From Ashinkailepas kermadecensis (lineage: Eukaryota > Arthropoda > Thecostraca > Neolepadidae), in NCBI GenBank assembly GCA_034440615.1, contig JAOTOM010003938.1, forward strand, positions 124,001 to 188,000: DNA of 64,000 nt. Direction: 5' to 3'. Below the pieces are notes generated by a model. The model was not told the origin of the DNA. It searched no databases and saw only the letters and a program-made list of their open reading frames with translations. Both the position numbers and the translations under genes were made by a program. This document shows, in pieces, positions 49,992 through 52,900 of the stretch; the first letter of the stretch is position 1; every line of letters begins with the position of its first letter.

Positions 49992-52900
49992 CTGGGGAGA
50001 CGGAAGCATACGTGATCCCCTGATCCAGTGCACAAATGCGCCAGTAAATAGCTATCAAATAGGATCTAATGCGCAGATGGGCCAGCTATCGGGACGGGCA
50101 ATGGGCGATGCGCACCGGGGGTGCATGCTAACTAGTGGAACATGACTGTGAATTTAACTTAGGCAAATACGCTAAAAATTCAACGGAAATGAAGATGTTT
50201 AGAGATTGGCCATTAATGCGAACTTCGGATCAAACGAGGCATAATAATTCCGATAGAGTTCAGTTTGCAAAACATGGCAATACAGACGTTAGCTTTATTT
50301 TACCCGACGATGAATCGCCACGAATAGACGAATTTGACGCCAGTGACGACAGGGTACATTATAGGATAGTATTTGCATCAGGTCTTATGTTAGTTGAGGT
50401 GGCTACAAAAGACATGTGGATGTCGGATGTAACTTCCAAAGTAGCTTCTTCCTTATTATTTCACTTCCTTATTCCTTATTTTTCCTCAGTGTTCCCACTC
50501 ACAGAAGTGTTGGTACTCCATGGCCTCCCCCATCACCATCACACACAGAAGTACTGGTGCTCCATGCCCCCCCCGCATCACCATCACTCACAGAAATACT
50601 GGTGCTCCATCGCCTCCCTCATCACCATCACACAGAAATACTGGTGCTCCATGGCCCCCCCCCGCATCACCATTACTCACAGAAATACTGGTGCTCCATC
50701 GCCTCCCTCATCACCATCACTCACAGAAATACTGGTGCCCCGCGACCTCCCACATCACCATCAATCACAGAAGTACTGGTGCTCCATGGCCCCCATCATC
50801 ACCATCACTCACAGGAGTACTGATGCTCCATCGCCTCCCTCATCACCATCACTCACAGAAGTACTGATGCTCCATCGCCTCCCTCATCACCATCACTCAC
50901 AGAAGTACTGGTGCTCCATCGCCTCTCTCATCGCCACCACTCACAGAAGTACTGGTGCTCCATCGCCTCCCTCATCGCCACCACTCACAGAAGTACTGGT
51001 GCTCCATCGCCTCCCTCATCGCCACCACTCACAGAAGTACTGATGCTCCATCGCCTCCCTCATCGCCACCACTCACAGAAGTACTGGTGCTCCATCGCCT
51101 CCCTCATCGCCACCACTCACAGAAGTACTGGTGCTCCATCGCCTCCCTCATCGCCACCACTCACAGAAGTACTGGTGCTCCATCGCCTCCCTCATCGCCA
51201 CCACTCACAGAAGTACTGATGCTCCATCGCCTCTCTCATCGCCACCACTCACAGAAGTACTGGTGCTCCATCGCCTCCCTCATCGCCACCACTCACAGAA
51301 GTACTGATGCTCCATCGCCTCCCTCATCGCCACCACTCACAGAAGTACTGGTGCTCCATCGCCTCCCTCATCGCCACCACTCACAGAAGTACTGGTGCTC
51401 CATCGCCTCCCTCATCACCATCACTCACAGAAGTACTGGTGCTCCATGGCCTCCCTCATCGCCACCACTCACAGAAGTACTGGTGCTCCATCGCCTCCCT
51501 CATCACCATCACTCACAGAAGTACTGGTGCTCCATCGCCTCCCTCATCACCATCACTCACAGAAGTACTGGTGCTCCATGGCCTCCCTCATCGCCACCAC
51601 TCACAGAAGTACTGGTGCTCCATCGCCTCCCTCATCACCATCACTCACAGAAGTACTGGTGCTCCATGGCCTCCCTCATCGCCACCACTCACAGAAGTAC
51701 TGGTGCTCCATGGCCTCCCTCATCGCCACCACTCACAGAAGTACTGGTGCTCCATCGCCTCCCTCATCGCCACCACTCACAGAAGTACTGGTGCTCCATC
51801 GCCTCCCTCATCGCCACCACTCACAGAAGTACTGGTGCTCCATCGCCTCTCTCATGCCACCACTCACAGAAGTACTGGTGCTCCATCGCCTCTCTCATCG
51901 CCACCACTCACAGAAGTACTGGTGCTCCATCGCCTCCCTCATCGCCACCACTCACAGAAGTACTGGTGCTCCATCGCCTCCCTCATCGCCACCACTCACA
52001 GAAGTACTGGTGCTCCATGGCCTCCCTCATCGCCACCACTCACAGAAGTACTGGTGCTCCATCGCCTCCCTCATCGCCACCACTCACAGAAGTACTGGTG
52101 CTCCATCGCCTCCCTCATCGCCACCACTCACAGAAGTACTGGTGCTCCATGGCCTCGCGGGCGGTGAGTCGCTCCTGGTGGTCGTACCGCAGCAGCTTGT
52201 CGAGGAAGTCGAGTGCCTCGGCCGACACCAGGTGCTGGTTGTCGGCGTGCACGAACCGCTCCCAGCGCTTCCGCGAGTGCCTGTCAACCGGGGCACTCGT
52301 CCACACTCGCCGGCACCCAGTGATGCTGAGGGGGTCACAGGAGTGGCTGTTATACAACATGACTTTGCAAAAGTACAACAGCATTAACATCAAATAAAAA
52401 TACAATGAAAAACGGATTTCATTGGCTAAACAAGGCTATTGGATCCGTCCGACACGCGCATAGCATCATCATAAATCTGAACACACATCGACGTCTTATG
52501 CATAGCAACCAGCTCTGATGCGTGTGCCATGTCTCGATTGCCCACAAGCACCACAGGAGGGGGAATCGAGTCAGACTGACCAGAAATGTGCTACGGATGG
52601 ACCACACGAGCCAGGATGGAGTTCAACTTGCCAACGTACCAGCAACAAGAGGTACACCGAGCCTCGGCTCCAGAAACTAATTCGGCACCAGCACGCTGCT
52701 CTGCGGCAGCCCCGTGGGGAAGGCGAACTCCCTGTCGCGAGCGTCGTTAAACTCGCCTGGCGTGCCTGTCCCGCAGGAGCTGCCACACCTATCGCATGGT
52801 GCCGTGTCGGCAAGTCGGCCAGCCTGAGCACGACCTTGACAGAAGTGTCAGGGGCCTCCGTGTGCATGTACAGGGACGATGCCCCGTAGTATTCAGCCTG

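Follow-up and report, generated by a model that had tools for sequence, protein, structure and literature searches.

The donor end of CK2 alpha exon 6 has been copied in tandem into a minisatellite of 38 units that spans the exon 6/intron 6 boundary, leaving 34 intact decoy donors downstream of the authentic one. The anatomy of this array, its descent from the junction, and its consequences for the reading frame are established here within the window, by which we mean the whole 64-kb stretch of DNA analysed. We consider it likely that the array is what has been called a "mirage" minisatellite, without a selected function of its own, in which unit 1 is still spliced and the errors made at decoys are mostly degraded, and that it is one product of a tendency for minisatellites to sit at coding boundaries in this genome.

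The donor array and its descent from exon 6

The CK2 alpha gene is complete, with 7 exons on the minus strand, an open frame of 388 residues, and a GT donor and AG acceptor at all six introns. The features needed to follow the array are these:

59402-59308, minus strand: CK2 alpha exon 1
58165-58054, minus strand: CK2 alpha exon 2
57204-56992, minus strand: CK2 alpha exon 3
56513-56319, minus strand: CK2 alpha exon 4
54020-53818, minus strand: CK2 alpha exon 5
52132..52280, minus strand: CK2 alpha exon 6, 149 nt; unit 1 of the array includes its final 25 nt
52126..52131, minus strand: authentic intron 6 donor GTGAGT, inside unit 1
50495..52156, minus strand: 44-bp minisatellite of 38 units, every one joining the final 25 nt of exon 6 to 19 nt from intron 6
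49792..49991, minus strand: CK2 alpha exon 7, C-terminal tail and stop

Intron 6 is 2140 nt long and ends CCCCAG/ACCCGATCG (the slash marking the junction), after which exon 7 follows in phase. Among the 120 matches listed of 5249 above the cut-off, the best full-length relative is isoform X1 of Pollicipes pollicipes (89% identity over 100%), from which the predicted protein differs by 4 residues before the variable tail, a 16-residue insert aside. That insert (GSAKVSKLGGPTMKNG) is present in P. pollicipes precisely at the position of the exon 5/6 junction (53818 / 52280, minus strand), and three fragments of it found no match on the minus strand of the window. The protein encoded by exon 6 shows no difference from P. 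pollicipes, and the spliced product aligns with it across the exon 6/7 junction with nothing inserted.

TRF places the array at 50495-52156 with a period of 44, 37.8 copies, 94% matches, and a score of 2789. The earlier note had described about 37 tandem copies of the exon 6 donor on the minus strand; both TRF and a unit-by-unit walk bear out the tandem 44-bp copies, and the walk puts their number at 38. It also returns the make-up that had been proposed, about 25 nt of exon end followed by GTGAGT and some 13 further intron bases, as 25 + 19 nt, and it agrees that unit 1 is the real junction, holding the end of exon 6 and the authentic donor, with exon 7 in phase. The array thus reaches 25 nt into exon 6 and, adjoining that exon, fills about 1.64 kb of intron 6 (2140 nt in all). 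The intron contains 35 copies of GTGAGT, every one as CTGTGAGT, that is, as CT/GTGAGT; the first is the authentic donor, the other 34 are decoys, and the hexamer is absent from units 32, 35, and 37. Classified by intronic sequence, 24 units fall into a type A (reading FCEWWR and a stop), 11 into a type B (FCE and a stop), and 3 into neither. Only unit 1 is translated in frame from exon 6, and since intact units carry an identical donor hexamer in an identical context, the preceding exon is the sole local mark that sets unit 1 apart.

The exonic 25 nt of the unit encode E-A-M-E-H-Q-Y-F. The pattern E-A-M-E-H-x-Y-F is matched in 110 of the 120 CK2 alpha homologues listed (of 5249 above the cut-off), mostly animals where a source is named, and unmatched in the other 10, which include the one plant we noticed. 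Exon 6 is therefore older than the array, and the origin of the unit in the junction of exon 6 with intron 6, as the earlier note had it, is upheld. The Gln codon of this motif is present in all 38 units (CAG, or CAA in unit 38), at a position where most relatives have Pro and P. pollicipes has Gln, from which we infer that the array is probably younger than the Pro-to-Gln change in exon 6.

Similarity to unit 1 is nearly flat over units 1-28 (block means of 0.97-0.99) and falls to 0.85 over units 29-38, and types A and B alternate over units 11-17 (ABABBAB). This pattern of decay and alternation is consistent with unequal exchange or slippage in multi-unit steps, although the mechanism is unproven. 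A short tandem duplication straddling the junction would thus have grown to 38 copies, probably by one of these two processes. We also considered that the distal units might act as a "tape-recorder", keeping earlier synonymous codons of the exon (CAC/CAT, TAC/TAT, GCG/GCC), and set this aside, since the sites are too few and the units share a GAG-to-GGG change as well, which is non-synonymous.

Minisatellites at other coding boundaries of the window

The plus strand carries another gene, a homologue of CUEDC1 whose two best matches come from the barnacle Amphibalanus amphitrite. Taken with the P. pollicipes match of CK2 alpha, this places the window in a barnacle or a close relative of barnacles. 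The CUEDC1-like gene was annotated by homologue guidance; exons may be missing, and its acceptor at 21704 is uncertain. A Pfam search with ten ORFs gave a CUE match under the curated cut-off and, on the same ORF, a second match at chance level. Arrays lie at or near several boundaries of the two genes:

5827..6369, plus strand: 44-bp array copying the acceptor of CUEDC1-like exon 2 and 14-15 nt of exon; the authentic acceptor lies before 6355
31254..31557, plus strand: 22-44-bp array ending 18 nt before the CUEDC1-like acceptor 31576
35105..35209, plus strand: 25-bp array of 4.2 copies (TRF) over the last codons and stop of the CUEDC1-like gene
49704..49822, minus strand: 52-bp repeat of 2.3 copies (TRF) over the last codons and stop of CK2 alpha
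53570..53788, minus strand: 22-bp array starting 29 nt past the CK2 alpha exon 5 donor

The array at CUEDC1-like exon 2 is the mirror image of the CK2 alpha donor array. It contains ten GGCAG/GCGG sites, the last of which is authentic and the other nine decoys, and each unit carries a CTGAC that we take to resemble a branch point motif. All nine decoy acceptors lead to early stops, with products of 49 residues in eight cases and 58 in one. An acceptor array that offers nothing beyond such products points to a mutational habit of the genome rather than to a device specific to CK2. The CK2 alpha array, then, is in its essentials as the earlier note described it, but the single event implied there gives way to one of several such arrays in 64 kb.

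Whether this amounts to clustering was assessed on 30 boundaries placed by homology (26 splice junctions, 2 starts, and 2 stops; two genes, one window) against a null in which exons were blocked and the arrays were placed randomly 5000 times. When the 29 arrays measuring 60 nt or more were used, 6 of the 30 boundaries had an array within 30 nt, against a null mean of 0.64, and none of the 5000 placements reached 6; using 36 TRF arrays, all 37 except one inside an exon, gave 8 of 30 against 0.81, and again no placement reached 8. Splice junctions alone, without the one uncertain acceptor, gave 4 of 25 within 30 nt (null 0.55, P 0.0012), and removal of the CK2 alpha exon 6 array together with its boundary still left 5 of 29 (null 0.57, P 0.0002). 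Four of the 30 boundaries are spanned outright, where 0.43 would be expected if the 37 arrays were seeded uniformly (Poisson P 0.001). An earlier and weaker test covered 20 junctions, before homologue-guided annotation brought the boundaries to 30; an array lay within 70 nt of 5 of them (null 1.13, P 0.0045) and within 30 nt of 3 (null 0.49, P 0.011). The cut-offs were picked after a first look, and thresholds from 0 to 200 nt were computed. Minisatellites cluster at coding boundaries within this window.

Proximity and descent are separate matters, and for the latter each 48-nt junction was compared with the unit of the array. The array past CK2 alpha exon 5 has 11 exact nt (CGGCAG/GTGGG) in common with the exon 5 junction (P 0.0028 against shuffled units). 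Among 420 junction-array pairs, 6 of the 417 beyond the three closest own-boundary pairs equalled or exceeded this score, so that descent of this array from the exon 5 junction is suggestive only. The comparison gave P 0.11 for the array near the CUEDC1-like acceptor 31576 and P 0.27 for that near the CK2 alpha exon 1 boundary (59308), and no similarity of the nearby array to the junction at the CUEDC1-like acceptor 27965 (P 0.40) or donor 32464 (P 0.95).

Tandem arrays make up about 35% of the 64-kb window (29 merged intervals). A very long 33-bp array, 8.8 kb at 38434-47222 with about 231-270 copies by TRF, lies downstream of CK2 alpha and is open in several frames on both strands. Open frames at 62812-63999 on the plus strand carry an endonuclease/exonuclease/phosphatase domain (PF03372, E 3.1e-06) and are probably part of a LINE-type element, and tRNA-like Rfam matches at 34315-34375 (plus strand, 36.1 bits) and 54740-54800 (minus strand, 32.6 bits) are perhaps tRNA-derived SINEs.

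Decoy donors, reading frame, and competing explanations

Two further features of intron 6 bear on what a transcript that misses the authentic donor could encode:

52115..52117, minus strand: in-frame TGA for any decoy use or intron retention, 17 nt into intron 6
50294..50299, minus strand: sole AATAAA/ATTAAA in intron 6, 1832 nt into the intron

When the frame is continued past exon 6, the protein has exactly 327 residues and ends in QYFCEWWR. The stop that the earlier note had put at about residue 327, after CEWWR, is thus recovered in the computed frame, where any decoy donor or retention of the intron leads to the TGA after residue 327. The distance from this stop to the new junction is 27 nt for the second donor, 71 nt for the third, and 115 nt for the fourth. 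The usual rule of nonsense-mediated decay, if it holds in barnacles, would favour decay for the third to sixth donors, whose stops fall between 71 and 203 nt upstream of their new junctions, and by the same rule all decoys but the nearest are expected to yield unstable mRNA.

All units but the first lie in the intron. If the array is a mirage without selected function, selection would have held unit 1 in place as the true exon end, and its donor is most likely still the one spliced, because pairing it with the acceptor upstream gives the shortest of the possible exons (149 nt). In both the CK2 alpha array and its CUEDC1-like mirror the copies fall on the intron side, so the authentic site makes the shortest exon in each case (149 and 95 nt); pairing of sites across the exon would pick the authentic site, while pairing across the shortest intron would not. 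Exon definition is thus the probable mode of recognition here. Transcripts from the 34 decoys would stop after residue 327 and be mostly removed by decay. The arrays would need no function, and they would persist because growth on the intron side is nearly harmless.

The main competitor is that the array serves to produce a short but functional form of CK2 alpha, a tail-less kinase of 327 residues arising by decoy splicing, retention, or intronic polyadenylation near 50299. The frame does give this product a clean ending, QYFCEWWR and a stop. The one AATAAA in intron 6 makes a transcript ending there conceivable, and no junction would lie downstream of its stop. Human CK2 alpha chains with deposited lengths of 325-329 residues align through the same Phe, which falls at position 322-324 of the chain; chains that end close to it can thus be crystallised. 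Against this, CEWWR was found in none of the 180 homologues fetched, which are mostly gene predictions from other species and so blind to a rare isoform here, and a looser pattern of the CEWWR type had one match among them, in P0019, at residues 2-5 of the N-terminus only. Nor are the decoy donors visibly preserved, since in the eight most decayed, distal units substitutions have reached 4 of 48 donor hexamer sites, compared with 12 of 152 in the exonic part and 27 of 152 in the rest; the decoy donors are kept no better than adjacent bases. Most decoy products are expected targets of nonsense-mediated decay, and the CUEDC1-like gene has the same kind of array without a plausible protein product. 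The functional short isoform that the earlier note had thought conceivable is on these grounds unlikely.

A selected role could also lie in splicing itself, with the array acting as a brake or a reservoir of donors that adjusts CK2 alpha output, either by retaining U1 or through a fraction of unproductive transcripts. The 34 decoys with intact CT/GTGAGT adjoining the authentic donor would suit such a role, but the lack of preservation of hexamers in decayed units (the same 4/48 against 12/152 and 27/152) and the comparable arrays at unrelated boundaries, stop codons included, make it improbable. The predicted RNA fold of the first array units is ordinary (z 0.46), which also tells against a brake and led us to reject the idea of an RNA structure hiding the decoys. 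Long tandem arrays are prone to misassembly, and one lancelet globin mirage is reported to have been misassembled in the draft genome, so that a misplaced array or a wrong copy number deserves consideration. Here, however, unit 1 is continuous with the coding exon, the far edge fades gradually into the intron, exon 7 follows in phase, and comparable arrays occur at further boundaries of the window, and we regard an artefact as very improbable. For a repeat that came first, as a satellite or mobile element, and was later recruited as the end of exon 6, we found no supporting point; with the exonic 25 nt encoding a motif that 110 of the 120 listed homologues match and an exon 6 protein identical to that of P. 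pollicipes, this history is scarcely credible.

The preferred reading of a mirage without selected function invites a broader and more doubtful one, in which barnacle genomes possess a biased minisatellite generator that seeds arrays at donors, acceptors, and stops, leaving many genes with stacks of near-identical decoys. If this were true, these genomes would hold a standing natural experiment on splice-site choice, with decoys that lie outside the exon and can be ignored only by cross-exon pairing, and they would be, in an arthropod, a continuous source from which introns could be gained and boundaries shifted. A genome-wide study could ask why minisatellites sit at coding boundaries and how the spliceosome picks one donor when dozens are identical. 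Invariable use of the first donor would mean that sites are found across the exon here; otherwise the array should harm CK2 alpha.

Comparison with known boundary arrays

Among the matches listed in our literature search, titles and abstract openings contained no report of boundary-spanning minisatellites in barnacles or other crustaceans, a weak negative result. The closest parallel is in lancelets, where mirages, minisatellites spanning exon-intron boundaries, are described in PMC3087553 and PMC3902484 for Adh3 and, since then, for the globins BflGb6 and BflGb9, troponin C, and PGBD5; either end of an exon can be copied, and splicing is reported there as undisturbed. The CK2 alpha array likewise spans an exon-intron boundary (25 nt of exon 6 and the donor), and its units copy exon and intron alike, with the donor GTGAGT kept in 35 of 38. 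In one lancelet globin mirage the far edge is described as lying outside homogenisation, and the decay of the distal CK2 alpha units fits a far edge that may have escaped it in the same way. The host here, in contrast, is an arthropod rather than a cephalochordate, there are 38 units as opposed to 3 and 6 in the two BflGb6 haplotypes described, and similar arrays in this window also cover stop codons.

In human IFI6 (6-16), as described in PMC4526556, two downstream units of a minisatellite serve as donors and produce different protein isoforms, evidence that donors of this kind can be used. The likeness is a minisatellite at an exon end with each unit offering a donor. The difference is that the 44-bp unit of CK2 alpha is not a multiple of three, and its decoys hit the stop after residue 327 and give no in-frame isoforms.

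Intron gain by tandem duplication, described in PMC4974935 and PMC2812944 (the Rogers model, potato RdRp, and human tandem repeats at exon-intron boundaries), shares with our case the tandem duplication of sequence that carries splice signals. In contrast, CK2 alpha is explained without a new intron, its protein aligning to P. pollicipes across the junction, and the array could be a precursor state of such a gain. The 38-unit donor array, its mirror-image acceptor array, and two stop-codon arrays within 64 kb suggest that the copying of coding boundaries recurs in a second phylum beyond the lancelets.
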